A DNA stretch of 49,690 bases, taken from IMG/VR virus record IMGVR_UViG_3300030406_003868, positions 1 to 49,690 of that record; one strand, given 5' to 3'. Shown in pieces: positions 1,819 through 49,609 of the stretch. Both the position numbers and the translations under genes were made by a program. This DNA is from a virus. The stretch's first letter is position 1. Every line of letters starts with the position of its first letter. A model generated the notes under the pieces. The model did not search any database, was not told the DNA's origin, and was given only the letters and a program-made list of their open reading frames with translations.

Positions 1819-4800
1819 ATGAAAGATTATCAAAACCCAAGTGAAGATTATTCGTTTAAACCTGTATATACTGCAGATTTAACTAATCGTTTACTACAAA
1901 ACTACAAACAAAATCCTCAAAAATTTAATGATAATTTAGTTTCACAACTAGAGAGTCATGCTAAGCATTATAATATTAATTTTAATAGAGATGAGCAATA
2001 CGAAGACTTTGATCTGTTAAATACTGTAAAACAAGTTGGTACTGGTTTTGTATCAGGTTTTACTACTTTAAATTATGGTGAACCTCCAAAGAATCCTTAT
2101 GAAAATATAGCTAATAGTTTAGGACATTTATTAGGATTTGTAGGGTGGGTACCTGGAGCGTCTGCTAAAAGTGGTATAGCTGCAATGAGAGCATTAGCTT
2201 TATTAAAAAACAGGTCTCTTCCTATGTTAGTAGCTGGTAAATTAACTAAGCCTGCTAGTGAATTAGGCTCTAAAATGGTTTCTGCTGCAGTAGGTAAAAG
2301 AGGTGAAGCAGGTTCTTTAGCATCTAAATTATTATACAATGATACAGCAAGAGATGCTGTTGAAGGTGCATTTCATTTAGGAGCTGCATCTGCAGTATCA
2401 TCTTGGACTTATGGAGTTGATGCTATGGTAGATTCTGCTGTTCATGGTGGAATTGCAGGTGGTGCATTTAGAGGTATAGGTAATTTATTAAAGTCTCCTA
2501 TTCCTACTGAAAATAAACTAGCAGAAGATGCATTAGGTTCTATTGCTGGTGCTTTATTTCAAGGGTTACCTTCTACTATAAGAGGTGCTACTGCTCCTGA
2601 ACAAATATACGAATATTTATTAGGTGCATATTTTGGATTTAATGAATCACCTTCATCTAGAAGAACTGCTTTAAAATATAGATATGAAGAGTTAGGTAAA
2701 GAACCTACTCCTGATGCTATGGAAGCTAAGTTGCAAAAAGATTTAGCTACAAAAGATTGGTCTCCAGAAACTAAAACTGTAGTTGAAAAATATGCTAGAA
2801 TGACTACACAAAATTTACAATCAGATCCACAAGTACAAACTATGATGAGAGATTTGATAAAAACTTATGGAGAAGATCATCCTGACATTAAAAAGACTCT
2901 AGAAGAAGGTTTTAGAGCTAAAGAAGGTAGATACCCTACTGAGCAAGAATTAAAGCGTGAGGCTGAATTTTACAAGCAAGAAGAGTCTATTGAAACTAGA
3001 GTAGAAAAGATAGAAGAAAAAGCTAAAGAAGAAAATGTAGAAGCTAATGATCCAGGGATTTCTATTGATGTACCAGAATCTTTAAAAAGATGGTCTGATA
3101 CTAGATTAGATTATCTTTGGAAAAACGAACAAGGCATAGAAGATTTAAATACTAAAAAGGTTGTTGTAGAATCTTTAAATAAAAAGCTTGCTGATAAAGT
3201 TAAAAACAAAGACATGGATGTCAATGAAATGACTGAATGGTTAAAGCGAGAACTTAATTATAATGTAGATGATTTTCCTGAAGCTGGAGAAAGAAATTTT
3301 TTTAGAAATTATTTAAAAAGAAGAGTGCAAGAAAAGAATATACCTATTATGTCTCCTACTATTGAGTATGATACTAAACCTGTAGGAACTATAGGTCGGT
3401 TTCAAGTAGGAACAATATCTGGTATAAAGAATTATTCTGGTATAGAATTAACTGGTTTTAACCCTCAAAATGCTGCTGGTAACAGAAAATCTATTAAAGG
3501 TGAAATATACGATATAGAAAATGTATATAATGAATTAACTGGTAATAAAATAGATTTTGAAAATAACAAACAAAGACCTATAAGAAGAATAGATGATTTA
3601 GTTTGGACTGATGGAGGAGTTAAAAAACAAGGTAGTTTATTAAAGTATATGGATTTTGTTGAAAGAAGAAACTATGATACTTATAGAGAAATAGGCATTA
3701 AAGAAGTAGAAGCTAAAGATTTATCTAGAAAAGATGCTGAAGTAGAATACAATAGACTTGTTGGCACTATACATGAAGATATGAATACAAAAGGTTTTTA
3801 TGATTATAGTGGTAGAGGTGATCAAGACGTAATGAATTATGTTAGATTTCATCCTAATGCTAGTAAAAAGAAAAGTAAATCTATCGTAAATCAATATGCT
3901 ATAGCTAATAAAATACCTTTAAAGAAAATAGCAGAGGAAAGAAAAAGATATATAAATAATTACAAAGGTGAAATAAAAAATCCTGGTCAATTATTTGACA
4001 GGTCTTTTGCATCTAATATTCTTTATGAGTTATCTTTAAATGGTTTTGATCCTGTTAGAAAAAATTATGGAATTATTAAAGATTTAGCTAATAAAGGAGA
4101 TAGTTTTATTACTAATCCTATTGCATTTAACAAAAGACAGCAGATCAATTTAACAAATGCTGTACCTTTAGAAGCTGAATTTATAACTAATTCTGTTCCA
4201 GATGTAATTGATGGCAATTTAAAGACTATTATATTAAAAACTGTTGATGATTTGCCTAGTAATTTAAGAAAAAAGCCTTGGGAAAGAAACAATGTTGATT
4301 ATATAGAATCTGATGATGGTGGATCATTAACAAGAAGAGATGTTTTAAATGCATTTAATGCAGAACAAGGTCAATATTATGCTAACAATCCTTCTGGTCA
4401 TCATAAAAATTTTGCTGTATCAAGAGCTAAAGATCAAGGATTATTACTTGTAAAGCATGAATCTAAAGATGCTGGTACATTATTAAGTAAAGCTATGCAA
4501 GATTTAGGTATTCATCAAATGTATACTACTACTGGTGCTAAACAATATGGAACAAGAAAACCTGTATTCGCTGAGTTAGTAAATAATAAATTAGAATTTT
4601 TTGATTATGTGAATGGCAAAAAGACTCCTGTTGATTATAAAAATTATATGTTTGATGTGAATGCTAAAGATATACGAACAGTAATGTCTGAAACAGCTAG
4701 TGAATCTATGATAAAAGATAAAAGAATGATTAAGCAGCTACCTGCTAATTTATCTCCATTAAACAAAGGATTTACTCCAGAGATAGCTGAAAGCTGGTTT

Positions 4801-7800
4801 AACGATTATAATCTTAGAGGATTTAATGGAACATCAGAATACAATGCAAAATTAGATAAATATTTAACTACTAAAAACGAAAAAATGATTGACGATTTAG
4901 TATTTAATATGGAAAAAATAAGCACTCCTAAAGTGTTAGAAGTTATTAGTACGCCTGGCAATACTAAGTTGCAAGTTAGATTTTATGAAAAAATGTTAGA
5001 TATAGCTAAAGAATCTGATAGATTAGATTTACAAGGTGGTACTACTAGCGTAGAAAGATTTGCAGAAGCTACTAAAGATTTAAATGATTTTAGATCTGTT
5101 ACAGATAGAAATTTAAGATTAGCAGAAAACAATATAGCAGTTATACTTGCTAAGCCTAATAATAAATATAGAGAAACTGTTCTTAAAAAGTATCTTGTTC
5201 ACCAGATAACCAGACCTGTTGTTCCTAATTCTTTTAGTGGTAAGCTTGATATATTTGATTTAGAATTACAACAAAATCCTATAACAAAGCGATTGAATAC
5301 TGAAAAAGACGTTATACTTTTGCATGATGGTAATAAAAAGAAACCTATTAACTATGATGATTTACCTACTACTTATAAAGATGGATCTGTTATCGGGAAA
5401 GGTGTTCTTGATTTAATAAAAAGAAATAAAACTTTAGGTGAATTATGGGATTATAGAAATTCTGCAAATCCTAAAACTAAAGAAATTATAGATAATTTTG
5501 TAGAACAAATAGTAGTAAGAGTACCATTAGACTCAACATCTGGTGCTGTAGTATTAAAATTTAAAGGGTTTACAGGTAGACAAGGGTTTGGTGGAATTGT
5601 GCATTCAGAAGCTATGGGCAAACTTGGTGGTGCTGACTCTGATGGTGATAAATTTATTAGTTATATGAATGCTAAAAGTAAGTATAAAAAACTTATAAAA
5701 GAGAATGCTGATGAATTTGTTAGGTATTACAAGAAAAGTGAATATGATTCTGGTAAAATAAAAACAGAACTTACTGCAGAAGAATTTGCTAAAGTTAAAA
5801 ATAAAGACGATTATTACCCTGCTGTTATGGATAATAAAAGAAAACATAGAAGCAAATTTACTTTAACAAAAGAAGAAGTAGGTGGTCCTGATAGAACTGA
5901 TAGCGATTTAATACATAGTCCTTTACATAGAAGGGAAATATCTAATACAGCAGCAGAAGGTCGTAACTCTTTAGGTCCTGCTGTTGTTAATAAACAAAAT
6001 CTTATATCTGCTTATACTGATATGCCTAATACTATAGAATATAGTGCTGGAGGTCAAAATCCTAAATGGGAATTTACTATAAGTAAAAAGAATAGTCCTA
6101 AAGAAATAGCAGAAGCTAAAGAAATATTAAGAACATCTATTGCTATACCATCAGATCCATTAGATGAAATTGGTATAAAAAGAAGAGAAGCTTACTATTC
6201 TAGTATGTTTGATTCTTTATTTAAAGTAGATATTTATTTAAAAAATGGTAAGCCACAATCAACAAGACCAGAAAAAATTCCTAATTGGATTAAGTTTAAA
6301 GTTATATCTCCTTATTCTAAATTAAATTCTATTATATATGGTAAAAATTATATGACAGGTAAGCAATGGAATTATGCTGAATATAGAAATGGATTAGATG
6401 TAGCAAATCAAATGGGTATAGGCAACCAGTCTGCTATAGGTAAAATTGGAAAAGAATTAACCAAAGTTCATTTTAATGATGGTTTAAGAAAAAGAGTTAA
6501 TACTAATGAAGTTGTAGAAGCTTATAAAAAATACGATGCTAATCAAAAACAGTATTATGATGTAGCTAAAGCTATAGGTAGAGCTGGATTCCCTATAAGA
6601 TTAAACCCTGCTACTAATGATATATTTTTTAATCATCGTAATTTAGATGTTTTAAATAAAGACGGTAAATTATTTAAAGCTAAATATGAAAATAGTCAAA
6701 ATGAAGTTAAGTTTGGTGAAGAATTATTTTCTAATGATTTACATAATATGGCTGGATTCAATGCTTTTATTAAATACTGGAAAGATGTGCCTGGTGCCAA
6801 GTTAAAAGAAATGGGCAATAAAGTTAAAGAAATATCTGATAGGTCTTTAGAGTATAGATTAGATGCTGAAGATGCTATGATTTATAAAATTAAATTTAAC
6901 AATCAAGTTATGGAAGGAATAAATAAAAGAGTACTTGATAATTTAGAGGCTAAAGCTCAAGCTAAAAATGTACCATTTGAAATATTGTCTCAATCAACAA
7001 GAGAGAAAACAAGCTCTATGTATACACAAAGAGAAATAGATGCTGATATTGCTAAATACAAAGCAAAATTAAATGATACAGAAAAAATGGCATTTGATGG
7101 GCTATTGCTTAGTGGCTTTAAAACAGGTATGCATAATAAAGTAGATAGATTTTATGACCTTTTAAACAAAAGAAATATGCTAACAGATAAAGAACTTGTT
7201 GAATTTGAAAGTTTAAAAGACGATGTATATCATACGTCTGCTGGTAATTTAGGATTTGCTAGTAGATCAGTATCTGATGCTGCTATAAAAGAATTTTGGA
7301 GCGAATATAATAAATCTTTTGACAGCATGACAAAGCCAATGACTGAAGGTTTAAAATCAGAAATAGATGATGTTGCTAAAAACATTACTAAAACTGAAGT
7401 TGAAATTGACAAAGCAAAGCAAGAAGTAGATTTAAATGAAACATACGAATCTAAACTATCTAGGTTAAGAACTTTAGATAAAATACCAGGATTTAGAAGG
7501 TTATTTGAAAATGAAAAGCTAGGTAAAGTAAAGCTTACAAACGAAAATCAAAGACTATTAGATGAATTAAACCAAAATTTAGGAGAATATGGTAATAGTA
7601 TTGGCATAAAATTAGAAGGATTAATTAGAGATTTGTTTCAAAAAAGTCCTGATGCATTAACTATTGAAGAGGTTAGATCATTTAACGAGCTTTTAAAAAC
7701 TAGAAAAAGCGGTAAAAGTTTAGGCTGGTTACAAAGAAGATTTACTAAATGGATGAATGGAGATCCTAAACTTAATGGTTATTTTTACCATCAATTTCCT

Positions 7801-10434
7801 AGAACTGTAGATAAAGCGTGGCTAAAAAACGATATGCAATTAGTAGAGCGTATAGGTTGGTATTTTGAGCCAGGCAAGAAACTACCATCAGAAGGTATAA
7901 TATTTGAACCTAGTCATGTTATTGGTCAAAGTCAATTTGCTACTAGTAATTTAGGTGATATGGCTTCTGATGTTAAAAGACAAATAGAAAATAGAGTTAG
8001 AGATAATTTAAAATATTTAAACTCTATCAAAGAAGGTCCTGAATTGCACGAATTAGCCGTTTATATTAGAGAATTACCTGAAGGTATAAGACTTTATGAG
8101 GCTAAAGATTACGCCAGTGCTACTGCTTATGGTGTTAGGAATGGTAAATTAGAACCTAAAATATCTAAAAGAGTGCAAGAGCTTGGCAATAAAAAGTTTG
8201 CAATACTTGAAGGAGCTAAGCGTAAAGAAATGACTGGCTATGAAATTATAGATAAAATAAATAAGTTTTGGGATAAAGAATTATCTGATACATATAAAAA
8301 TTGGATCAAATCTAATGAAAAAGATATAGCTAATTTTGTATCTATGGAAAAAGATGGTAGAGAAAAAGCTGATGTAAATAAGTTTGTAGTATCTATTATG
8401 GATGCTATAAAAGAAAACAAGCCTGTACATGAAGCTATTAAAATAGGTGGAGATGGCATGAGAAGAATGTCTATCTTTACACAAATGCAGTTAGCTAGAA
8501 ATCCTGAAGCTAAAATTGCTTTATCTAAAAAGTTAAGCAGTACTGAAACTCCATATAGAAAATATTATTGGCCGCATAGAAATTATGATCCAGCTGTTAT
8601 AGAAAAAGTGTTAAAAGAACGAATGCAAAAGTTAAAAGAAACACCTTTAAACCAAGAAGCAGATAGAGAAGCTATTATTAATGAAGCAGCTAATTTAGCT
8701 TTTAGAATGAAAACTGTATCAGATGATTATAATTTAGATGTATATAAAGATTGGTCTTTGTTTGAACAAGTTTCTAGCAAAGTAAAAGAAAAATCTAAAG
8801 ACAAACTTAGATATGAAACAGCTAATATAAGATCTGGTCACACACAATCAAGAGATTTACATATATCTGGTTATGATAGAAGTCCTACAGCTGCTGAAAA
8901 TTATATAAAAAGCATAGTTGATTCTTATTATCAGAATGCTACACAAATTATTAATAGAAAAATTATAGATCAATTTGAATTGACTCATCTTAAAAAGTAT
9001 ACTAATAAAGATGGCTCCATAAAAGATAAAGATGGGTATGATAATATAAAAGCTTGGACTGATTTCTTTAAACTTTATGCAAATAGATCAATGGGTTATC
9101 CAGAAGCAATTCCAGATTATATTGCTAATAATCCTAAAATGAAAATTAAAGGCACTCCTTATCATTGGTTTGCCGATTCTACTGTTAAAAATAGGATAAA
9201 TAAAATAAGTGAAAAATTAGGGCTTAAAAAGAACGAATTACCTCCAGAGCTAGATGAGGCCCTTTCTTATAGAAAACTCCGTAATTGGACTAATATGGAA
9301 GCTAAATTCCAATTAGCTACGCTTCTTGCTCACCCTAAAACAGCTGTTGCTAATATTTTTGGTGGTAGCACTATGACAATACAATCTACTGGCATTAGAC
9401 ATTGGAATAAAGTAAGAGATATAGATTGGCTTAAAACTAATATTAATGAAACATTTACATCTAAGCAAAAAATATACGATTGGGTTGAAAGTTTAGGAGT
9501 TGTTGAAGAATTTTTAAGAAAAGAAATAGGTCTTACTGGAGCAGCTAGAAACAAAAAAGTATCTGATGGTTTAGAAAAGCTTATTAAAAAGATAAAAAAT
9601 GATCCTGAAGTTTCTGATAAAACATTAAAGAAAATCTGGAGAGAGTCTGGATTATCTGATAGTTTGTTTGAAAAAGGCGCTTATTTTATGAGAATTTCTG
9701 AAAGAAAATTAAGAAAAGATGCTTTTATGGCTCATTATTTACAAGCTGTAGATATATTTAAAGGTGCCATAACAGATCCTAAGCATCCATTTTTAATATG
9801 GTGGGCTAAACGAGGTGTAAAAGATACTCAATTTTTATATAATGCAGCTAGTAGACCTGCTTTTGCATCTAGTGCATTGGGTAAAGTTATGTCAAGATTT
9901 CAATTGTGGGCTGCTAATTCTGTAGCGTTTAGAAGAATGGTATATACTGAAGCTAAAGAAAGAGGATTTGCTAGAGGTACTCGTGAATATAAAAGACTAG
10001 AAAGAACTTTACAAATAGATATGATGTTATTTGCTTTGGCTAATACATTTGCTTATAGTTTGTTTGAAAATACTTTACCTGCTCCTTTAAACTGGTTCCA
10101 AGATTTATCAGATTGGATGTTTGGGGATGAGAAAGAGAGAGATAGAGCATTTTTTGGAGCTTATCCTTCTACCATAGCTCCATTGCAAATGGTTACTCCT
10201 CCAGCATTAAGATTATTGCCTCCTACTATAAAAGGTTTAGTAGACGATGATTGGGGAAGAATGTCTGAATATTATTTATGGACTATGATTCCATTTGGTA
10301 GGTTAGCTAGAGATGTTAAAATATCAGTAGAAAATCCTATGCAAATAGTTGAAAGAACTACAGGATTCCCTTATGTTAACTTACATAGATATTTAAAAGG
10401 GCAAAGAGATGAAACTCCTCCAGGCGAAGGATAA
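1819..10434 (+). CDS. Giant (2871 aa) internal virion protein with RNA-polymerase-like ADSDGD motif
   Basis: This is the largest gene, ending the late block. The N-terminal ~130 residues include hydrophobic, Gly-rich helices (LGHLLGFVGWVPGAS). Around residues 1240-1280 there is RVPLDSTSG, then GKLGGADSDGDKFISY with Asp 1273, 1275 and 1277. This matches in order and spacing the RVP/RxP element and DxDGD metal loop of the catalytic double-psi beta-barrel of cellular RNA polymerase beta-prime (NADFDGD) and of the single-chain YonO/crAss gp47 polymerases. TTGAKQYG (Lys 908) upstream could be the lysine-bearing barrel. The C-terminus (about 2650-2871) has hydrophobic helices and a proline-rich stretch typical of the ends of large phage polyvalent proteins. 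Known: crAss-like phages and N4 package a polymerase in a giant ejected protein. Inferred: this one may do the same. The alternative is a structural ejection protein with a chance motif. Virion location is fairly sure; polymerase activity is not. Confidence 0.65.
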   Translation: MKDYQNPSEDYSFKPVYTADLTNRLLQNYKQNPQKFNDNLVSQLESHAKHYNINFNRDEQYEDFDLLNTVKQVGTGFVSGFTTLNYGEPPKNPYENIANSLGHLLGFVGWVPGASAKSGIAAMRALALLKNRSLPMLVAGKLTKPASELGSKMVSAAVGKRGEAGSLASKLLYNDTARDAVEGAFHLGAASAVSSWTYGVDAMVDSAVHGGIAGGAFRGIGNLLKSPIPTENKLAEDALGSIAGALFQGLPSTIRGATAPEQIYEYLLGAYFGFNESPSSRRTALKYRYEELGKEPTPDAMEAKLQKDLATKDWSPETKTVVEKYARMTTQNLQSDPQVQTMMRDLIKTYGEDHPDIKKTLEEGFRAKEGRYPTEQELKREAEFYKQEESIETRVEKIEEKAKEENVEANDPGISIDVPESLKRWSDTRLDYLWKNEQGIEDLNTKKVVVESLNKKLADKVKNKDMDVNEMTEWLKRELNYNVDDFPEAGERNFFRNYLKRRVQEKNIPIMSPTIEYDTKPVGTIGRFQVGTISGIKNYSGIELTGFNPQNAAGNRKSIKGEIYDIENVYNELTGNKIDFENNKQRPIRRIDDLVWTDGGVKKQGSLLKYMDFVERRNYDTYREIGIKEVEAKDLSRKDAEVEYNRLVGTIHEDMNTKGFYDYSGRGDQDVMNYVRFHPNASKKKSKSIVNQYAIANKIPLKKIAEERKRYINNYKGEIKNPGQLFDRSFASNILYELSLNGFDPVRKNYGIIKDLANKGDSFITNPIAFNKRQQINLTNAVPLEAEFITNSVPDVIDGNLKTIILKTVDDLPSNLRKKPWERNNVDYIESDDGGSLTRRDVLNAFNAEQGQYYANNPSGHHKNFAVSRAKDQGLLLVKHESKDAGTLLSKAMQDLGIHQMYTTTGAKQYGTRKPVFAELVNNKLEFFDYVNGKKTPVDYKNYMFDVNAKDIRTVMSETASESMIKDKRMIKQLPANLSPLNKGFTPEIAESWFNDYNLRGFNGTSEYNAKLDKYLTTKNEKMIDDLVFNMEKISTPKVLEVISTPGNTKLQVRFYEKMLDIAKESDRLDLQGGTTSVERFAEATKDLNDFRSVTDRNLRLAENNIAVILAKPNNKYRETVLKKYLVHQITRPVVPNSFSGKLDIFDLELQQNPITKRLNTEKDVILLHDGNKKKPINYDDLPTTYKDGSVIGKGVLDLIKRNKTLGELWDYRNSANPKTKEIIDNFVEQIVVRVPLDSTSGAVVLKFKGFTGRQGFGGIVHSEAMGKLGGADSDGDKFISYMNAKSKYKKLIKENADEFVRYYKKSEYDSGKIKTELTAEEFAKVKNKDDYYPAVMDNKRKHRSKFTLTKEEVGGPDRTDSDLIHSPLHRREISNTAAEGRNSLGPAVVNKQNLISAYTDMPNTIEYSAGGQNPKWEFTISKKNSPKEIAEAKEILRTSIAIPSDPLDEIGIKRREAYYSSMFDSLFKVDIYLKNGKPQSTRPEKIPNWIKFKVISPYSKLNSIIYGKNYMTGKQWNYAEYRNGLDVANQMGIGNQSAIGKIGKELTKVHFNDGLRKRVNTNEVVEAYKKYDANQKQYYDVAKAIGRAGFPIRLNPATNDIFFNHRNLDVLNKDGKLFKAKYENSQNEVKFGEELFSNDLHNMAGFNAFIKYWKDVPGAKLKEMGNKVKEISDRSLEYRLDAEDAMIYKIKFNNQVMEGINKRVLDNLEAKAQAKNVPFEILSQSTREKTSSMYTQREIDADIAKYKAKLNDTEKMAFDGLLLSGFKTGMHNKVDRFYDLLNKRNMLTDKELVEFESLKDDVYHTSAGNLGFASRSVSDAAIKEFWSEYNKSFDSMTKPMTEGLKSEIDDVAKNITKTEVEIDKAKQEVDLNETYESKLSRLRTLDKIPGFRRLFENEKLGKVKLTNENQRLLDELNQNLGEYGNSIGIKLEGLIRDLFQKSPDALTIEEVRSFNELLKTRKSGKSLGWLQRRFTKWMNGDPKLNGYFYHQFPRTVDKAWLKNDMQLVERIGWYFEPGKKLPSEGIIFEPSHVIGQSQFATSNLGDMASDVKRQIENRVRDNLKYLNSIKEGPELHELAVYIRELPEGIRLYEAKDYASATAYGVRNGKLEPKISKRVQELGNKKFAILEGAKRKEMTGYEIIDKINKFWDKELSDTYKNWIKSNEKDIANFVSMEKDGREKADVNKFVVSIMDAIKENKPVHEAIKIGGDGMRRMSIFTQMQLARNPEAKIALSKKLSSTETPYRKYYWPHRNYDPAVIEKVLKERMQKLKETPLNQEADREAIINEAANLAFRMKTVSDDYNLDVYKDWSLFEQVSSKVKEKSKDKLRYETANIRSGHTQSRDLHISGYDRSPTAAENYIKSIVDSYYQNATQIINRKIIDQFELTHLKKYTNKDGSIKDKDGYDNIKAWTDFFKLYANRSMGYPEAIPDYIANNPKMKIKGTPYHWFADSTVKNRINKISEKLGLKKNELPPELDEALSYRKLRNWTNMEAKFQLATLLAHPKTAVANIFGGSTMTIQSTGIRHWNKVRDIDWLKTNINETFTSKQKIYDWVESLGVVEEFLRKEIGLTGAARNKKVSDGLEKLIKKIKNDPEVSDKTLKKIWRESGLSDSLFEKGAYFMRISERKLRKDAFMAHYLQAVDIFKGAITDPKHPFLIWWAKRGVKDTQFLYNAASRPAFASSALGKVMSRFQLWAANSVAFRRMVYTEAKERGFARGTREYKRLERTLQIDMMLFALANTFAYSLFENTLPAPLNWFQDLSDWMFGDEKERDRAFFGAYPSTIAPLQMVTPPALRLLPPTIKGLVDDDWGRMSEYYLWTMIPFGRLARDVKISVENPMQIVERTTGFPYVNLHRYLKGQRDETPPGEG

Positions 10435-10977: not shown

Positions 10978-11838
10978 TTAAAATATATACCTTATTTCTT
11001 GCCAAGGTATTTGTTTATTATGATTTTCTAAGAATTTATTTATATACATACGTTTTGCTTGGTATCTATATCTAATATTTACACCACCATATTGTGATAT
11101 TTTTCTTTCTTGTAATCTAGGTTCCCATAAAAAGCCTTCTCCTTTAACATTGTGTATTATGTTATATTCATGCATTTTCTCATTATGTGTTAAAAATATG
11201 CATTCTGCTTTTACATAAGGCTTTATGCTTGGGTCTACTATTTTATCTACTAATTTAAATAAATCTCTATAATCTTCTTTATGATTGTCATACATTATTA
11301 TTGGAGAATAATTTATATGCACATCATATCCAGCTTCATAGAAATCATTTATTGCTTTTATTCTATCTACAATTTTACTTGTACCAGGCTCTAATTTGTC
11401 TGATAATGATTGTGGCATAAGACTAAATCTTATTCTAATCTTTCTGTTAGGATCATAATTTAACAAATCTTTGTTTACATATTTTGTAGCAGCTGTACCC
11501 ATAGCTTTTTCGTGGTATTTAAAGTAATCAAATATTAAATACCAATTATGGTAATCAGCATGCAATACAAAATCTTCGTTACAACTAAAATCATATGTAT
11601 AATACTCTTCATGTGTTTGATTAGGCTCTTTAGGCCAAGACAATCCTTCACAATGTTTTTCTATAGCTATTAATAAATCTTCAGGGTTTTTAGCTATTGT
11701 TAACCCAGAAGGTAAATGTCTTCTCATATAGCAATAAGAGCATTTATACATACATCCAAAGCCAAAACTTGGCGTTATATAATCACTGCTTCTACCAGAT
11801 TCTCTGATAATCATAGCCTTTCTATTTACATATCTCAT
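10978..11838 (-). CDS. Radical SAM protein, spore photoproduct lyase-like
   Basis: The start is set at ATG 11838: AAGGA lies about 8 bases upstream and the ATG overlaps the previous stop as TAATG. The frame is open 19 codons further up but would overlap the neighbour. Residues 29-36 hold CMYKCSYC, the CxxxCxxC that binds the 4Fe-4S cluster and S-adenosylmethionine. FGFGC before it and CYMRRH after it match the spore photoproduct lyase (SplB) branch. Length (286 aa) fits a catalytic core without the longer N-terminus of bacterial SplB. Known members reverse UV-made thymine lesions with a 5'-deoxyadenosyl radical. In a phage this could protect or modify DNA, or act on tRNA. Family is fairly sure, substrate unknown. 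Confidence 0.8.
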   Translation of the reverse strand: MRYVNRKAMIIRESGRSSDYITPSFGFGCMYKCSYCYMRRHLPSGLTIAKNPEDLLIAIEKHCEGLSWPKEPNQTHEEYYTYDFSCNEDFVLHADYHNWYLIFDYFKYHEKAMGTAATKYVNKDLLNYDPNRKIRIRFSLMPQSLSDKLEPGTSKIVDRIKAINDFYEAGYDVHINYSPIIMYDNHKEDYRDLFKLVDKIVDPSIKPYVKAECIFLTHNEKMHEYNIIHNVKGEGFLWEPRLQERKISQYGGVNIRYRYQAKRMYINKFLENHNKQIPWQEIRYIF

Positions 11839-12035
11839 TATTTTATCCTTTTTGTTTTTGACCAATTTTTTTTGCCTGTCTCTCTTTGAGCGCATTTTTC
11901 ACAAATAATTAGGTCGGTTTTGTAATCTTTAGGGTATAAATTTTTAAACAATAATACATATTGATAGGCATGTTTTCCTGTGTATTTACTACAAGTATCA
12001 CATTGTTTATTTATATATCCTAAATATTTTATCAT
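11838..12035 (-). CDS. Zinc-finger-like microprotein, 65 aa
   Basis: Two cysteine pairs, CDTC near residue 12 and CEKC near residue 48, are spaced as in a small zinc ribbon. The C-terminus is basic (RETGKKNWSKTKRIK). There is no clear ribosome site, and the gene starts only 8 bases after a GC-rich structured element (12044-12123), which might control its translation. Its stop overlaps the radical SAM start by one base, so the two are probably made together; it may be a partner or regulator of that enzyme. Specific function is unknown. Confidence 0.6.
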   Translation of the reverse strand: MIKYLGYINKQCDTCSKYTGKHAYQYVLLFKNLYPKDYKTDLIICEKCAQRETGKKNWSKTKRIK

Positions 12036-40196: not shown

Positions 40197-41018
40197 ATGG
40201 AAAACATGTATAATTACAATAAAGCAGTAAAGGCAATGAGAGATTTTTTTCAAAAAGAAAAAGGTTTTATAGAAGTACCTGCTCAAAGCAGACAATCTAT
40301 ATTAGCAGCTTGCGAAGATCCTGCTACAATAACAAAATATGAATTTAATGGTGTTGAATGGCCGTTGCCACAAACAGGGCAAATGTGGCTAGAAATAGAA
40401 CTGTTAAAAAATCCTGATGTCAAAGGAGTATTTTGTGTAACAACAAGCTATAGAAATGAACCAAATCCTGTAGAAGGAAGACATGATAAAATATTTCCTA
40501 TGTTTGAATTTGAATCTCATGGAAATATAAATGATATGATAGCTTTAGAAAAAGAACTGCTTATACATTTAGGTTTTGGTTTGGGACATGAATTAATTAC
40601 ATATGATGAAGCTTGTAAAAAATATGGTACAATGGAATTAGGTTATGAAGAAGAAGAAGCTTTGTGCAAAGACTTTACACCTTGTACTTTTTTAACACAT
40701 TTTCCATTAAGAACAGATCCATTTTGGAATATGAAACATGTTGGTACTGGAATATATAGTAAGGTAGATGTAATTATGCATGGAATGGAAACTATAGGAT
40801 CTGCTGAAAGAGCTACAGATATACAAGAAATGAAAGATCAATTTCATAATATATCTAAAGGAGAGTACGCTAAAATTTTATACAATCATTTTGGTAAAGA
40901 AAGAGTAAATAAAGAGTTAGAAGAATATTTAGCTTTAGACATGTTTGAAAGGTTTGGTGGTGGAATAGGAGTTACTAGAATGGTATCTGCTATGAAAGCT
41001 GCTAAAATATTGGAGTAA
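40197..41018 (+). CDS. Class II aminoacyl-tRNA synthetase-like enzyme (AspRS/AsnRS/AsnA type)
   Basis: The 273 residues contain only a catalytic core, no anticodon-binding domain. Motif 1 is near 23-28 (GFIEVP), then LPQTGQ (57-62), motif 2 with Arg86-x-Glu88 and FEFE at 103-106 (SYRNEP ... RHDKIFPMFEFE), a GSAER loop (201-205) and motif 3 with Arg261 (GGGIGVTR). This order matches class IIb AspRS/AsnRS cores and their paralogue AsnA. All ATP-contact residues seem present, so it should make an aminoacyl-adenylate. Without a tRNA-binding domain it may ligate amino acid to another molecule (asparagine, protein, nucleotide). It is in the late block between membrane genes. Family is fairly sure, product unknown. 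Confidence 0.75.
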   Translation: MENMYNYNKAVKAMRDFFQKEKGFIEVPAQSRQSILAACEDPATITKYEFNGVEWPLPQTGQMWLEIELLKNPDVKGVFCVTTSYRNEPNPVEGRHDKIFPMFEFESHGNINDMIALEKELLIHLGFGLGHELITYDEACKKYGTMELGYEEEEALCKDFTPCTFLTHFPLRTDPFWNMKHVGTGIYSKVDVIMHGMETIGSAERATDIQEMKDQFHNISKGEYAKILYNHFGKERVNKELEEYLALDMFERFGGGIGVTRMVSAMKAAKILE

Positions 41019-42068: not shown

Positions 42069-42194
42069 ATGGCTAAGAAAGTAAGTTGGTTGTGGGGAGG
42101 CAAACGATATAGTGGAACTTTAATAAGAGAAACTAAAACACATAAGTTTGCTAGAACTCACAATGGCAAAATTAAAAAAATAAAGAAAAAATAA
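42069..42194 (+). CDS. Basic microprotein, 41 aa
   Basis: TAAGGAG is 6 bases before ATG 42069, and the TAA overlaps the next ATG. The N-terminal part has a Trp-rich beta piece (KKVSWLWGGKRYSGTL), the rest is basic and ends KIKKIKKK. It continues the run of DNA-binding-type peptides (41693-42194). A role in DNA condensation or as a head plug is plausible; nothing proves it. Confidence 0.55.
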   Translation: MAKKVSWLWGGKRYSGTLIRETKTHKFARTHNGKIKKIKKK

Positions 42195-45100
42195 TGCCTA
42201 AAAAACTACATGAAATAAAAGGTTTTTTTGCAGGTACTGTTAGTAACCCGTCTGAAACTGATGTGCCAGAAGACTCAAATGTTAGTAGTTTAGATGTTGA
42301 CAATCATTTATCTACAGGCTCTATAAAAGGTAGATATGGTGATAAAAGTTATGATGCAGGAGGGTACACTACCAATAATCATGTAAGCGAAATATTTACT
42401 ATTACAGCAGGTTCTGCTAACACTAGTCATGCTTTACATAATAAATTTTTTGGTATTAGCTCTCCTCATAACGATTATTTATTTTATTATAATTCAGGTG
42501 GCGCACCAGATCCTGTAATTTTTCCTCAAACCAGATCACTTGAAACCGATGATGGTATTATAAAAATACAAGTTGATATAGCAAATAATGATACTACAAC
42601 TTCAATAGCTACAAAAACAAAGAATGCAATTCATGCTTTAAGTGAATTTACTGCTGATTCTAATTTAAATGTTGTAACAGTAACTCAAGCTTTAAAAGGA
42701 ATAGTTGATGCTCCAAATCCTCATAATAGTGGTTTTACAATAGTAATTACTACGCCTGGTTCTTTGTATAACATAGAAACAAAAACATCTATATTTATAA
42801 AAAATAATGATGAGCACAATTTATTTTACGTTGATAATAAAACTAATAAGTTAAATAGAATAGAAGATTTTTATAACAAAAATAGTAATCAAGAGTTAAA
42901 AAAAGGTAATAATATATCAAGATCAGAATTAAGTTTAGCTAAAAGCAGTAAAATAATTACAGCAGGAAGAGGTATAGATTTACAGCCAAAAACATTTGGT
43001 TATTTAAACAATGATAGTTTGCAAGGGAGTAGAGGAGATTATTTTGAATCTGATGCTCAATTAAAAGCTCCTGATGGAATCAATCCTTTTGGTAGATTTA
43101 CTAGAATTATAAAAGTTTCTAATGATGACACTGGTTTGTATGGTTATGTTAAAGGTCAACCATATATATGGAGAATTAAATTTGATCATGCAAATGCAGG
43201 GACATTAGCTTCTGCATATCCAAGTGCTAGATTAAGCTTTAATGTAGATCATATGTGCAATTGTGTTTCTGTTAGTGCAAGTGATAGTTATGTATGGGTT
43301 TATAATGGACCTGGAGATGATCCTAATTCACTTGAATATAATGCATTTTCAAATAAGAATTATAATGATCCTGAAACAGAAGATAATCCAGGAAGATTTT
43401 ATAAATTAAAAGTTAATGATGATAGTTCTCCTGTTGATTGGGAATCTTCTCCTCCAGTATTAAGTGCTTTAAAAGAAGTAAATATAGCATTTGAAACAAA
43501 TAAAGCAATGGATTGGACTCATGATACAGGTCAAAATAATTATTCTGGAAAAGCTAGATTAGGCGATATGATGGAAACTGGTAATCATACAAAAGGAATT
43601 TTATGGTTTTTATTAGTTCCAGTAAATCCTGAAGGTAATTCTTTTACACAATGGTTTAGATTTTTAAGAGCAAATTGGGTAGCAAATCAAAATATTGCTG
43701 GTGGAGCAGATAATGCAGATAATGATGGTTATAATTCTCCAGATAGCGGTGCTAAATTTAATTCAAATAGTATTCCAAGATGGTTATATGCTGCTAGTGG
43801 AACAGAAGCAATAGATGAAGCAGGTGGAGTAGAAACTATAACTTTTAATGATAAAACACCACAACATATGGGTTTATTAGAAACTCGATCAAATAATTAT
43901 TATTATCCACCAGGCAGTCAGCTTGTTTATGGCAATGCAGGAGCGTCTGATGGATTTACAGGGTGGGCATTTAATGATGGAAATTATTCTAATACTGGAA
44001 ATGGTATGCAGTATTTATATCATTTTCATTACAGAGAATCAGACCAACAATATGTTCAAACACTATTTGACGCTGGTGATGCAACAAATGGAACAGTTTA
44101 TAATATTGCAAGAAATATTGGAATGATTTGTAGTCATGATTTTTCTGGATATACAGGAGATAATTGTGGTACTAATGATAGAAGAGCTAGTACAAATGGA
44201 GCAGGTGATGCAAACGCTGGAAATTCAATAACTGCAAATATATGTCCTTTAGAGTTTTCATTGGTAAATTTGTCTGCTGATTATGGGATAGATGAAGATG
44301 GTACTAATGCAAATGCAGTAGTAGGATGCATGGCTAAATATAATACAGCTGGAGAAGGCATTTGGCTAATTAATAGAATAGATTCTAAAGCTATAGTAGC
44401 AGGTGGATCAGAGTTGTGGGGTGGATTAATATGTGATACTGTAGATAACAATTCAGGAACTTATGAAGAAGGCTCTGCTAGTGATGAGTATAGAGTTAAT
44501 GTTGCTGGTAAAACTGTAATGTATGTTTGCAGTTATTTAGGTAATGAAGGTGCTATGCATATGAATGATACAGATGGATGGACAGATGCTGCTGGAGGAG
44601 GTATTCCAGCTGGACTAGGCAGTGATACTGATTTTGCAAGCGATGCTCATAAAGTATCTACAATGACATCTGATACACCAGATACTGTATTAAGGCAGGC
44701 TAGGCTTTTTAATAATGATGATTTTAACACTATATCTCCATTAGATTTTCATGGTGTATCTATGGTACGAAAAGTTGGCACAGATTCACAAGCAAATACT
44801 GATAATGCTTCTAGTAAAGAATCTACTTTTTTTGTTTTATATAAAAAATATCAAGTTCATGGAGATGATAATCTTGAATATTTTACAGAATTATTAGCTT
44901 TTGATGCAAGAGTTTGTAGTAATAACAAAGGGACTGCTGCATCAGGAGATGTTGATGCAAATATATTTGAAGGAATTGCTACTTTTAATCAATCGTCATA
45001 CAAAATATCATTTGATGGAGATGGTGATTCTGATTTAGCAGGTTCAACATCTGTACATAATCCAAGAATGCAAGATCCTACTTTTGTTGTAGAAGAGTAT

Positions 45101-46690
45101 AATAGTAGTTCTCTTGCTAACACAACCGCTTTGCACACTAGAACAGCAGATACTAGATTAGTATTTTTTGATAAATCAGCAGGTATGTCTTTAAAAGTTA
45201 TGGATTTAGTTACAGATGAATATTTAATTAATTCAACGACTCCTGTTCCTCAAGATGCAAACAATGCTAATGAAAATTATACTTTTATAAATTTTGGTCA
45301 AACTTTAACAGATTTTGGTTTTGGAGGATCTAATTCTATTATATCAAGCTTTACTCCGTCAGCACATAGTCAAAGCAAAAGCAATTTTATATACAATACT
45401 AGTTATTATTATAAAGTTTCTTTTCTTTATGATGGCTACCAAGAAAGTCCTTTAACAAGAGCTCCTTGGGTTTTTACAGCAAGCACATATGATAGTTCTA
45501 ATTATGTAGATGAAACTGATAATTATGAACAATTAGAATTAGCATTAAAATTATCAAATTTATCTCCTAGAATTTCTCATATAAATATATATAGAACAGA
45601 TGATCCTAATAAATTGTATAGATTAATAACATCAATACCATTGGATTCTACTTGGATAGAAGATGATAATGAAGTGTTTAGAAAAACATATATAGATATT
45701 GGAAATAGTGGAGCTAGTTATGAAGCTATTAATAATATGCCACAAGATTTAAGAAATACACAACCTAATTACACTATATCCGAAGTTTTTGAAGGTTCTT
45801 TATTTATTGCAAATTGTTATCATTCAAATGTAGTTGATGGATCTACATATGTTTTTAAATCTCAACCTGGAAATTTTAATCAATTTAACTGGTCTCAAGA
45901 CTTTTTAAAGCTTCCAAATATTCCAACTGCAATGAAATCTTACTTAGGAAGATTGTATATTTGGGATGAAAATAATATGTATGTAGTTAATTCTAATTTA
46001 ATAATAGAAGATACATACGAAGGCATAGGATGCTTAAATTCTAAATCAGTAGTATCTTGTGATGCAGGTATGTGTTTTGCTGATTCTAATAATATTTATT
46101 TACAAACACAAGGATATCCTCAAATAATATCAAATCCAATAGCTACTGCAGGAGACAATACAGGATATCAAGATTTATTAAATACAGCTACATTTGATCC
46201 AAAAATTTATTATATGTCTAAAATTACATCTTTTGTAATTATAGTAAATTCTTCATTTGCCTGGCTTTATAATGTTAGTTCTAAAAGATGGGATAGATGG
46301 TCTGTTTCTAATATACAGTCTGGTATTTTAGGAAAAGACAATGAATTGATTTTATCAGAAACTAATGGTAAATTTGTTAATTTAGCTTGTAATTCTTCTA
46401 GTAGGAAAAATTATACTTGGAAAAGTAAAAAGTTAACTATGGGATCTGATAGCCAAGATAAATTTTTTAAAAAAACAAGAGTAACAGGTACTAATGCTAA
46501 TGTTATAGATACAACAGCTACATCCAAAGGATCGCTTAGTCCTACTTATGCAAACGATACTGATAATGCTGAATATACACACCCAACAGGCGCTACTAGA
46601 AAAGGTAAATGGATACAATATACTATTAATAATGAATCAAATGAAATTGATTCTATTGCGACTATATATAGAGACAGGAATGTTAAATAA
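42194..46690 (+). CDS. Large tail protein, probable nozzle/stabilisation protein, 1498 aa
   Basis: The start IKGFFAGTVSNPSETDVPED and the pattern VDNHLSTGSIKGRYGDKSY recall the N-terminus of podovirus tail nozzle proteins, where the first residues describe a 'defined by nodes' sheet. The C-terminal third has propeller-like segments (KSYLGRLYIWDENNMYVV, SFAWLYNVSSKRWDRW). A long polar central part rich in Asn/Asp/Gly is likely the outer insertion. It is translationally coupled to the peptide upstream. It probably forms part of the tail tube tip; the exact place is inferred. Confidence 0.65.
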   Translation: MPKKLHEIKGFFAGTVSNPSETDVPEDSNVSSLDVDNHLSTGSIKGRYGDKSYDAGGYTTNNHVSEIFTITAGSANTSHALHNKFFGISSPHNDYLFYYNSGGAPDPVIFPQTRSLETDDGIIKIQVDIANNDTTTSIATKTKNAIHALSEFTADSNLNVVTVTQALKGIVDAPNPHNSGFTIVITTPGSLYNIETKTSIFIKNNDEHNLFYVDNKTNKLNRIEDFYNKNSNQELKKGNNISRSELSLAKSSKIITAGRGIDLQPKTFGYLNNDSLQGSRGDYFESDAQLKAPDGINPFGRFTRIIKVSNDDTGLYGYVKGQPYIWRIKFDHANAGTLASAYPSARLSFNVDHMCNCVSVSASDSYVWVYNGPGDDPNSLEYNAFSNKNYNDPETEDNPGRFYKLKVNDDSSPVDWESSPPVLSALKEVNIAFETNKAMDWTHDTGQNNYSGKARLGDMMETGNHTKGILWFLLVPVNPEGNSFTQWFRFLRANWVANQNIAGGADNADNDGYNSPDSGAKFNSNSIPRWLYAASGTEAIDEAGGVETITFNDKTPQHMGLLETRSNNYYYPPGSQLVYGNAGASDGFTGWAFNDGNYSNTGNGMQYLYHFHYRESDQQYVQTLFDAGDATNGTVYNIARNIGMICSHDFSGYTGDNCGTNDRRASTNGAGDANAGNSITANICPLEFSLVNLSADYGIDEDGTNANAVVGCMAKYNTAGEGIWLINRIDSKAIVAGGSELWGGLICDTVDNNSGTYEEGSASDEYRVNVAGKTVMYVCSYLGNEGAMHMNDTDGWTDAAGGGIPAGLGSDTDFASDAHKVSTMTSDTPDTVLRQARLFNNDDFNTISPLDFHGVSMVRKVGTDSQANTDNASSKESTFFVLYKKYQVHGDDNLEYFTELLAFDARVCSNNKGTAASGDVDANIFEGIATFNQSSYKISFDGDGDSDLAGSTSVHNPRMQDPTFVVEEYNSSSLANTTALHTRTADTRLVFFDKSAGMSLKVMDLVTDEYLINSTTPVPQDANNANENYTFINFGQTLTDFGFGGSNSIISSFTPSAHSQSKSNFIYNTSYYYKVSFLYDGYQESPLTRAPWVFTASTYDSSNYVDETDNYEQLELALKLSNLSPRISHINIYRTDDPNKLYRLITSIPLDSTWIEDDNEVFRKTYIDIGNSGASYEAINNMPQDLRNTQPNYTISEVFEGSLFIANCYHSNVVDGSTYVFKSQPGNFNQFNWSQDFLKLPNIPTAMKSYLGRLYIWDENNMYVVNSNLIIEDTYEGIGCLNSKSVVSCDAGMCFADSNNIYLQTQGYPQIISNPIATAGDNTGYQDLLNTATFDPKIYYMSKITSFVIIVNSSFAWLYNVSSKRWDRWSVSNIQSGILGKDNELILSETNGKFVNLACNSSSRKNYTWKSKKLTMGSDSQDKFFKKTRVTGTNANVIDTTATSKGSLSPTYANDTDNAEYTHPTGATRKGKWIQYTINNESNEIDSIATIYRDRNVK

Positions 46691-48729
46691 TGGCAATATC
46701 AACAAAAAGAACTCCTAATGTAGGAGATTTAAATCGTGCAGTAAAAAAGATTTATGATGATATAAATGACATTATTAATTCTGTAAATAGAGAAGTAAGT
46801 TTATCTAATCCTATTGGAGGAAAACCAGGCGATATTAGAGTAATAAAAGATTCATCTTCAAAAATAAATACAACAAAACATAAATTAGAATTTAGATCTG
46901 ATGAAGGATGGGATAAAGTTATAACTATGCCAAGAAATCCTGATAAAAATGCTATGATAGCTTACAATACAGAATCAGAAACATTTGAATGGGTTAATAT
47001 AGATGATGCATTAGATATTAGTATGTCTAGTCCTGGCAAAGCAACTTTATCGTCAACATCAAATGCTTTATCTAAATATAGGCAAGCGTATAGCGTTATG
47101 GGGGCTGGGAATAATTATGCTAATGGATTGCTTCTTGCTGGATCTGAAACTCATAACTCTCATTTTTTAAGAAAAGATGGTACATGGGCTCCAATACCTT
47201 CTGCTAGTTTTCCAACTGGAGATAGTGGTAACGCTGCTATATATGATAATAGTGGAGTGCCTACTTTAAAAGATGGTATAACTCAAGCAGAAATGCAAAT
47301 AGCTATAGGTGGTGTTTATACTGATACTAATACAAACCAATTAACAACATTTAATATCGGTGTAGATACTAATACTAATGCTACTACTATTGCTCATGGA
47401 GAAACTTTAACTTTGACAGGTGGTACTGGCATTTCGACAGAAACAACAGCAGATGGTACTGTGACATTTACTAATACAGTAACTAATACGGATGTTAATG
47501 TAAGTGTAGGTAATTTAGAAACAAGACTAGGTGAAATTGATACAAGTATAACTATAGGCAATTCTAGTAGTATAAATACGACTATATCAGGAGATTTAAC
47601 AGTTAGTGGTAATGATATAAATTTTCCTTCTACAGCTCATAGTACTATATCTGTAAATCCAGCGACAAATCTTGATACAGAAGGATATAGATTGTTTATA
47701 GGAGCTGGTCAAGGTACAGGAACAGCTAAAGGTGGTAGTATATATCTTAGAACTTCATTAGCAGGAGGGTCGTCTAATTCTACAGCTAATGCATATACAA
47801 ATATATTAGGAGTTCATGGAACAGGAGATATAGGTGCTAGAGCTACAAGTAAATTATTTTTTGACAATGTTCTTGGATCTGCTGGTGGAGGTCATACTTA
47901 TATACAAGAATCTGCTAATGATGTGTTGGATATATATGTTGGTGGAGATCAAATGCTTACGTTAGATGAATCTAATAGTAGAGTAAATACAGCTTTTGAT
48001 GTAAATCTTACAACACAAAATGCTATAGTGTTTAATACTTACGATAATAATGATAAAATATATGGCGATGGTACTGATTTAGTTTTTATGAAAGATGATA
48101 GTGATGTTATATTTTTAAAAGACAATGAACTAAGAAGCGATTTGCCTATTAAAGTTAAAGAACAAGCAAGTGCTATATCTGATACTTCTTCATATGGTCA
48201 AATTTGGGTTAAAAATGATACCCCAAACAATTTATATTTTACTAATGATGCAGGAAATGATGTTCAAATTACTAATGGTTCTAATTTAGCAGGTGGTGGT
48301 TCATCTAGTAATTATTATTGGGTTCTTAATGCAGGTTTTAATTATGGTTATGCAGGAGGTACAAAAGTATATATGCCTTTAAATGGATATATAATTGAAA
48401 GTAGTGGTTCAGCAGCAAGAAATGAATATCAAGTAGTTGTAATGCCACACGATGGATATTTAAGCAAAATAATAGTAAGAAGCGAAGAGGCTTGCGGCTC
48501 TTCTGTAGTTGGATTACATAAATCTTCAAACGGTACAGAGATTCCAAATGTCACAGCATCAAACTCAGTTACTGTAGATATGGCTGTTGATGATACTGCT
48601 TATACTTTTACATTTGGAGAGTCTGCAACAGTATCAGGTGGTGATGCAGTAGCTATATCTTTTGACCCAACAAATGATGCTAATGACACCGTAATGACTA
48701 TCGTTTTTGTATTAGATGGAAGTACATAA
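46690..48729 (+). CDS. Tail fibre/adhesin, 679 aa
   Basis: It overlaps the previous stop by one base. A helical N-terminus (NRAVKKIYDDINDIINSVN) likely joins the tail. Then repeated Asn/Thr-rich beta segments follow, with HFLRKDGTWAPIP (a motif of many phage fibres) and Gly/Ser/Thr-rich strands, ending in a beta domain (VVMPHDGYLSKIIVRSEEACG). It has no S74 chaperone, unlike the 1903-residue fibre, so it folds without self-cleavage. It probably gives a second receptor contact. Confidence 0.75.
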   Translation: MAISTKRTPNVGDLNRAVKKIYDDINDIINSVNREVSLSNPIGGKPGDIRVIKDSSSKINTTKHKLEFRSDEGWDKVITMPRNPDKNAMIAYNTESETFEWVNIDDALDISMSSPGKATLSSTSNALSKYRQAYSVMGAGNNYANGLLLAGSETHNSHFLRKDGTWAPIPSASFPTGDSGNAAIYDNSGVPTLKDGITQAEMQIAIGGVYTDTNTNQLTTFNIGVDTNTNATTIAHGETLTLTGGTGISTETTADGTVTFTNTVTNTDVNVSVGNLETRLGEIDTSITIGNSSSINTTISGDLTVSGNDINFPSTAHSTISVNPATNLDTEGYRLFIGAGQGTGTAKGGSIYLRTSLAGGSSNSTANAYTNILGVHGTGDIGARATSKLFFDNVLGSAGGGHTYIQESANDVLDIYVGGDQMLTLDESNSRVNTAFDVNLTTQNAIVFNTYDNNDKIYGDGTDLVFMKDDSDVIFLKDNELRSDLPIKVKEQASAISDTSSYGQIWVKNDTPNNLYFTNDAGNDVQITNGSNLAGGGSSSNYYWVLNAGFNYGYAGGTKVYMPLNGYIIESSGSAARNEYQVVVMPHDGYLSKIIVRSEEACGSSVVGLHKSSNGTEIPNVTASNSVTVDMAVDDTAYTFTFGESATVSGGDAVAISFDPTNDANDTVMTIVFVLDGST

Positions 48730-48824
48730 TGATAGAAAGAACAAAATGTATGGTATGTCAAGAGCCAGTATGGGTAATGAATTGTTATTATCAATGTAAA
48801 AATTGTGGATTTGAGGCACATTGA
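48729..48824 (+). CDS. Zinc-ribbon microprotein, 31 aa, with in-frame extension past TGA
   Basis: ATG 48729 overlaps the fibre stop (TAATG). The product has two CxxC pairs (KCMVCQ, QCKNCG) 13 residues apart, a minimal zinc ribbon. After the TGA at 48822-48824 the same frame stays open for 18 codons to TAA 48879-48881 and reads like protein (EESDNSQVDYLKNPIVDK), so read-through or a recent nonsense change is possible. Either form is short; the role is unknown. Confidence 0.6.
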   Translation: MIERTKCMVCQEPVWVMNCYYQCKNCGFEAH

Positions 48825-48928
48825 GAAGAGTCTGATAATAGTCAGGTAGATTATTTAAAAAATCCTATTGTAGATAAATAAAAAGTTTTAGTAAGTTCCG
48901 AGGTGAACTATGAAAGAAAAGAGGTTTT

Positions 48929-49609
48929 ATGAGTAGACTTTCAAAATGGATAGATAAAAATGTATTAGGCATTAGAAACGCTAATGAAGTAGCAGATACT
49001 ACTAGAAATATGATGCTTAATAACCCTATGTTACAAACATTTGAAGACAGATCAAATGAATTGTACGATATGGATTCTGATTTTTATCAAAAAGGTAGAA
49101 GCTTCTTTTCTGACATGTATGGTAATCAAGGATTAGATCAATTAGCTACTCAAAATAATGCTATGAATAGATTAAATGCAAGAGGTGGAATAGCCCCTGG
49201 TATTGGATTTGCACAATCACAACAAGCTTTAAATGCTATTAATCAAAATGTTGCAAATCAAACAGGTAGAAGTATGATGGATATGTGGAGACAAGGACAG
49301 CAGTTAGCCCAAGGTTATGGTAATCAAGCATCTGGTATTTATAATAATGCAAATCAGATGTCTACTCAACAATATTTAGCGCAAGATGCTGCTAATAGAG
49401 CTGCTAAATCACAATTTACACAAGGAATGATAGGATTAGGAATGAATGCTTTAGCGCCAGGTTTAGGTGGATTAATGGGTATGACAGGATTGGAAAGTGC
49501 TGCAAATCCATATTTACCAAGAGATGCATCAGGCAATATGCAAACAGGTGGATTTACGCCTTTTCAAGCTTTTAGATATGGATATTTACCAGAAAGGACA
49601 TTTGAATGA
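48929..49609 (+). CDS. Small internal virion protein, 226 aa (complete copy)
   Basis: AGAGG lies 4-5 bases before ATG 48929. The protein has an acidic start, long Gln/Asn/Ala-rich repeats (GYGNQASGIYNNANQM) and a hydrophobic Gly/Met stretch (MIGLGMNALAPGLGGLMGM), ending FRYGYLPERTFE. A slender, low-complexity, partly hydrophobic protein before the other ejection-type genes suggests a core or ejected virion protein. The same gene's tail is at 1-192 in a shorter allele. The function is inferred from position and composition. Confidence 0.7.
   Translation: MSRLSKWIDKNVLGIRNANEVADTTRNMMLNNPMLQTFEDRSNELYDMDSDFYQKGRSFFSDMYGNQGLDQLATQNNAMNRLNARGGIAPGIGFAQSQQALNAINQNVANQTGRSMMDMWRQGQQLAQGYGNQASGIYNNANQMSTQQYLAQDAANRAAKSQFTQGMIGLGMNALAPGLGGLMGMTGLESAANPYLPRDASGNMQTGGFTPFQAFRYGYLPERTFE

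Follow-up and report, generated by a model that had tools for sequence, protein, structure and literature searches.

The giant gene and its genomic setting

The window analysed here is a stretch of viral DNA of 49,690 nucleotides (IMG/VR record IMGVR_UViG_3300030406_003868). It carries an intact open reading frame on the plus strand, with an ATG at 1819 and a stop codon ending at 10434, which encodes a giant protein with a predicted RNA polymerase core (Table 1). The late strand of the window runs from TerL, portal and capsid through tail and spike genes to genes for proteins of 1498, 679 and 226 residues, and it continues across the contig ends with genes for proteins of 253 and 299 residues and the polymerase gene. 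If the genome is circularly permuted, the virion-type series goes on at 189-950 and 916-1815. Early-type genes for an HNH endonuclease, a Gam-like protein, a primase-helicase and a Sak4-like protein run the other way, on the minus strand, from about 21.9 down to 10.5 kb.

Table 1. Features of the giant-protein gene and its late-strand neighbours (window coordinates)
Feature	Position	Strand	Basis or remark
Giant-protein gene with predicted RNA polymerase, 2871 aa	1819..10434	+	last gene on the structural-gene strand
Conserved N-terminal segment rich in small residues and glycine, residues ~182-272	2362..2634	+	conservation profile
Predicted RNA polymerase core (single chain, two barrels), residues 560-1555	3496..6483	+	AF2, Foldseek, VIA, profile match
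Lys772-Arg773, invariant KR pair	4132..4137	+	aligned with gp66 K893-R894
Strand-rich region, putative first (beta-like) barrel, residues 861-954	4399..4680	+	strand pattern of the model; gp66 alignment
Lys879, invariant lysine of the first barrel region	4453..4455	+	37/37
Lys908 (in TTGAKQYG), predicted active-site lysine	4540..4542	+	conservation; alignment with gp66 Lys1065
Predicted second (beta-prime-like) barrel region with active site, residues 1230-1305	5506..5733	+	
RVPLDSTSG, residues 1234-1242	5518..5544	+	counterpart of gp66 R1322-x-P1324...S1330
DSDGD (Asp1273/1275/1277), predicted catalytic metal-binding triad	5635..5649	+	conservation, gp66 alignment
Helix pair with conserved GR..LG, residues 1368-1401, bridge-helix candidate	5920..6021	+	secondary structure of the model; assignment inferred
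Trigger-loop candidate: helix-loop-helix that includes conserved SDP(M/L)DE, residues 1427-1467	6097..6219	+	assignment inferred
Helical C-terminal half, residues 1690-2871, possible ejection-protein part	6886..10431	+	AF2 pLDDT 73
Large virion-type genes upstream, same strand (1498, 679, 226 aa)	42194..49609	+	

An earlier note, made from the nucleotide sequence, had picked out RVPLDSTSG, Asp1273, Asp1275 and Asp1277 (located at GKLGGADSDGDKF) and Lys908 as possible active-site elements of an RNA polymerase, and the translation places all of these residues at the positions given there. Taken alone, a DxDGD string is weak evidence, because about 0.05 occurrences are expected per shuffled protein of the same composition and two further long open reading frames in the window also carry D-x-D-G-D; it is the conservation of the string across homologues that raises it above chance.

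The 20 genomes that we checked, of about 48-56 kb, belong to a single lineage whose polymerase evolves fast. TerL of the relatives is 65-70% identical to that of the window, except in one close genome (G007, 96%) and one distant genome (G003, 38%); for the capsid protein, identities are mostly 50-68%. Identity between the polymerases of relatives is about 27-30%, far below the values for TerL or capsid. The contigs begin at differing points of the gene order, and in one of them the capsid gene is split over the contig ends, as expected of complete genomes opened at arbitrary places. Each genome contains one copy of the two-barrel polymerase. TerL, portal and capsid of the window belong to phrog_38, phrog_156 and phrog_1328, and those of the crAss-like phage phi14:2 to phrog_6681, phrog_6547 and phrog_11589. 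No PHROG was common to the TerL, portal and MCP of the two phages at the thresholds used, and by this test the lineage is therefore not crassviral. Weak similarity links its portal to those of short-tailed phages, KPP25 and BcepMigl among them.

Several other genes of these genomes gave recognizable matches. The window encodes a tail-spike-type protein of 1903 residues with a C-terminal Peptidase_S74 intramolecular chaperone domain (31647-37358, plus strand), as well as a spore photoproduct lyase-like radical SAM protein (10978-11895, minus strand; PF20903, E 8e-22) that is kept in several relatives, with 63-94% identity in the best four. The protein encoded at 40197-41018 (plus strand) is about 50-56% identical to the annotated tRNA ligase of Prochlorococcus phages P-SSM2, P-SSM5 and P-SSM7, and it is 78% identical to a gene in L043 that has a different location in the genome. 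Two TerL matches contain one in-frame stop each (G010:C1:20727-22223, TAG; G019:C1:29616-31118, TAA), for which readthrough, an effect of the match end or an assembly error are options.

Conserved residues and predicted fold

The giant protein gave no match in Pfam, PHROGs, PDB sequences or 50,697 annotated phage records, and a search of genome contigs for its relatives returned none. Other family members used as queries against the annotated phage records found no relative either, tblastn against these records misses the family, and the family profiles A1, A2 and A3 gave nothing significant against PDB sequences. Among cultured phages, PHROGs and Pfam families we found no match to the giant-polymerase family, nor a description of it in a literature search that mainly covered sources outside subscription journals. 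The members found so far are all metagenomic.

A first motif-blind scan of IMG/VR yielded seven loci, and the pattern R[VT]P....SG...L.F.GF...GADxDGD was present in all four independent homologues that span the motif region. By a profile scan, at least 222 related stretches in IMG/VR encode the family. The pattern of that scan included the active-site motif, which biases conservation among its 222 stretches, and we therefore repeated the search with the C-terminal 472 residues only. This second motif-blind set comprises 38 sufficiently long homologues; some of its loci lie on contigs already present in the first set, so that the two overlap. Asp1273, Asp1275 and Asp1277 are each conserved in 38 of 38 homologues of the second set, as are Arg1234, Pro1236 and Gln973, and Lys908 and Lys879 are found in all 37 ungapped rows and Arg773 in 37 of 37. 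Substitution of Gly1276 by alanine (DxDAD) occurs in 4/38 homologues, all of which retain the three aspartates. DxD(G/A)D is thus kept in every homologue that reaches the region, in line with the conservation that the earlier note would expect of its ADSDGD motif.

Two individual members deserve mention. At L060 (7142-17152) DxDAD replaces DxDGD with the three aspartates retained. One A1 member has a cpYpsA SLOG domain (PF12694, E 1.5e-25) inside the polymerase region; judging from its extra length, this member is probably L004 (1385-5236), whose polymerase match falls in two pieces (G002).

We then turned to the structure predicted for the region around the motif. The AlphaFold2 model of residues 560-1640, built from 60 sequences, has a mean pLDDT of 89 and a pTM of 0.87. 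Foldseek against the PDB ranked the virion-packaged RNAP of phi14:2 first (E 3.2e-9), followed by P74-26 gp62 and then P23-45 gp64. In VIA, the highest Z values belonged to QDE-1 (18.3 over 559 residues) and maize RDR2 (17.2); phi14:2 gp66 scored 12.4 (667 residues), gp64 12.2, the virion RNAP gp96 10.2 and the largest subunits of cellular Pol I/II about 9. The strongest matches in BFVD were unnamed proteins and, after these, proteins of uncultured crAss-like phages. Because the confidence of the model and the Foldseek and VIA matches agree, a double-barrel polymerase core in residues ~560-1555 is established at the level of prediction, which is the outcome that the earlier note had anticipated for this part of the protein.

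Lys908 precedes Asp1273-1277, which puts the barrel bearing the lysine first and that bearing DxDxD second, the topology of the barrels being taken from the fold matches. In such an arrangement the first barrel would contribute Lys908 and the second the three aspartates, which would hold the catalytic magnesium. The bridge-helix and trigger-loop candidates downstream are assigned by order only; the SDP(M/L)DE region of the latter is aligned with NAKDP of gp66.

Relation to known polymerases

Two-barrel virion RNA polymerases are known from crAss-like phages, from the Thermus phage P23-45 group and, as multisubunit enzymes, from jumbo phages. We compared a family profile of 60 sequences with a profile of 81 crAss-like polymerases using hhalign and obtained a match over 920 collinear columns with a probability of 97.5% and an E value of 3e-11; decoys with reversed profiles reached at most 0.1%. 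An HMM search that used the A2 profile missed gp66 in the phi14:2 genome, whereas the more sensitive profile-profile comparison succeeded. In the resulting alignment DSDGD falls on D1361/D1363/D1365 of gp66, RVP..S on RIP..S (R1322, P1324, S1330) and the GAK of Lys908 on the GVK of Lys1065.

The residues that are invariant in the giant-protein family coincide with those invariant among the crAss-like polymerases. In the latter, R1322, P1324 and Gln1116 are each present in 81/81 sequences and Lys1065 in 79/81, and the KR pair (K893, R894) and the aspartates are invariant or nearly so. Lys908, tentatively named as a lysine element on first inspection, is therefore backed by its conservation within the family as well as by its alignment with Lys1065.

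The RNAP of crAss-like phages is described as a virion component in a passage of PMC7886860 that cites Drobysheva et al. With gp66 (PDB 6vr4) and crAssphage gp47 the giant protein has in common a single-chain two-barrel polymerase that lies inside a giant protein and is encoded beside structural genes, together with the invariant elements KR, TDA/DG, GxK, Q, RxP..S and DxDxD. The active site reads GGADxD(G/A)D in the giant-protein family and GSDFDIDK in the crAss-like family (signature G(S/A)DFDIDK), which makes the former related to, but outside, the latter. Further differences from gp66 are the C-terminal half of about 1200 residues and the N-terminal part, both without detectable relatives, and the genomes themselves measure about 48-56 kb compared with about 100 kb for crAss-like phages. 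Altogether, the comparison supports the view that the giant protein is a crAss-type two-barrel polymerase with an active-site signature and flanks of its own, from an uncultured phage lineage that stands apart.

Other polymerases are more remote. The single-chain two-barrel fold is also found in gp96 (PDB 8h2m, 8h2n) and gp64 (a non-virion RNAP, PDB 8f72) of P23-45. Of these, gp96 is a virion RNAP that forms one chain with the tape measure protein, a further case of a polymerase inside a giant virion protein; it differs from the giant protein described here in this fusion, which occurs in a long-tailed phage, and in having no clamp (PMC10770324). The RNA interference polymerases of the QDE-1/RDR type have the best VIA Z values, yet they are cellular enzymes with another role, and only 9-11% of the structurally aligned residues are identical. 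The SPbeta phage protein YonO is likewise single-chain with D-x-D-G-D in its active site, but it is a protein of 839 residues that is not part of a giant one. The family profile did not reach YonO, gp96 or gp64, the latter two compared as single sequences. Of the relatives that had been proposed for a profile-profile search, the crAss-like enzymes were thus recovered and YonO was not.

A T7-type polymerase (PF00940) was found neither in the window nor in seven relatives, and the T7 control was detected with E 9.9e-110, which agrees with the remark of the earlier note that no such gene is visible elsewhere in the window. With the crAss-like polymerase as the sole detectable sequence-profile relative and PF00940 absent, the guess in the earlier note of a crAss gp47-type enzyme, and not one of the N4 or T7 type, holds.

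Flanking regions, probable packaging and proposed early transcription

About 1900 extra residues flank the polymerase core and most likely serve packaging and ejection. The conserved N-terminal segment (residues ~182-272) is possibly membrane- or virion-related; hydropathy showed no strong peak across it in the window protein. In the C-terminal half, where residues ~2400-2860 are the best conserved, a Foldseek search with the predicted model gave no significant match. VIA aligned this half with the T7 core protein gp16 (241 residues, Z 5.9) and with the core protein of phage E1004 (198 residues, Z 5.5), both below the level of evidence, and its remaining matches were short helical stretches. 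T7-type core proteins account for the longest structural alignments, without sequence support: compared with T7 gp16 profiles (78-sequence alignment), the C-terminal half scored at or slightly above shuffled and reversed controls. Neither the N-terminal nor the C-terminal part showed a relation to phi14:2 gp65, gp67, gp68, gp71 or the flanks of gp66. It is tempting to speculate that, in a large lineage of uncultured and probably short-tailed phages, a crAss-type virion RNAP has been joined with a T7 gp16-like core protein, an idea that we regard as rather doubtful. If it were true, the protein that helps the DNA across the envelope would also carry the polymerase that transcribes the incoming DNA.

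The absence of clear early promoters had been offered as a sign of an injected polymerase. Sigma70-like sites are rarer in the early arm than in shuffles (52 compared with 71.5, sd 7.6), which is compatible with missing promoters; the argument drawn from this for an injected polymerase stays unconfirmed. No 8- or 10-mer stood clearly above shuffles in the early-arm gaps of the window, and comparison of those of ten genomes revealed no repeated motif shared among them. In a single early arm, L300 of G010, overlapping 10-mers from AATCAGCCCC to AGCCCCTTCT occur in three gaps, and three intergenic gaps there hold, above shuffles, a GC-rich word with CAGCCCCTT that might be a promoter or a regulatory site.

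We consider it very likely that the giant protein is a virion-packaged, ejected, single-chain two-barrel DNA-dependent RNA polymerase of the gp66/gp47 type. Packaging and ejection are suggested by gene position, orientation and precedent, and packaging is favoured because the polymerase gene stands at the end of the late strand, where it would be made together with the structural proteins. A two-barrel polymerase that, in the manner of P23-45 gp64 or YonO, stays outside the virion and is made in the cell to transcribe middle or late genes would fit the catalytic core equally, since the core itself is silent on virion or non-virion use and the VIA scores of gp64 and gp66 are about equal. We nevertheless judge this improbable: the gene is co-oriented with TerL in 20/20 genomes and closes the structural block of the window, in contrast to gp64, which belongs to the pre-early genes (PMC10770324); the core is surrounded by the long flanks, with the highest conservation at the C terminus; and the sequence profiles tie the giant protein to the crAss-like enzyme, which is packaged, but not to gp64 or YonO.

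It is less probable still that the giant protein is a relic, i.e., a structural or ejection protein with an inactive polymerase domain. Fast divergence (~27-30% identity, against 65-70% for TerL) and the few members with DxDAD would be in keeping with such a loss of function. In contrast, the three aspartates, both lysines, R-x-P and KR stay invariant in a domain whose other parts fall to 25-30% identity, and invariant catalytic residues amid a diverged domain are the pattern of an active enzyme. N4 injects its polymerase within a giant protein of similar size, yet an N4-like or T7-like virion RNA polymerase has almost no likelihood here, given the two-barrel fold (Foldseek, VIA) and the absence of PF00940 from the genomes tested, in a search that did detect the T7 control.

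A virion-packaged polymerase of the gp66/gp47 type would be produced late, as the structural proteins are, then be packaged, and be ejected into the cell along with the DNA that enters first. There it may transcribe the leftward early gene arm (10.5-21.9 kb), after which, if the crAss-like and P23-45 enzymes are a guide, host RNA polymerase would take over the later genes; both the catalytic activity of the protein and its choice of transcribed genes are predictions. Such an enzyme would add a distinct, widely sampled lineage to the two-barrel virion polymerases. The crAss-like enzyme would gain a relative that profiles can detect, in a lineage whose structural genes are different; this relative may serve as an outgroup for the fast-evolving crAss-like enzymes, and a construct of about 1000 residues would be directly testable. 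The family also suggests that host-independent early transcription may be commoner among uncultured phages than annotation shows.
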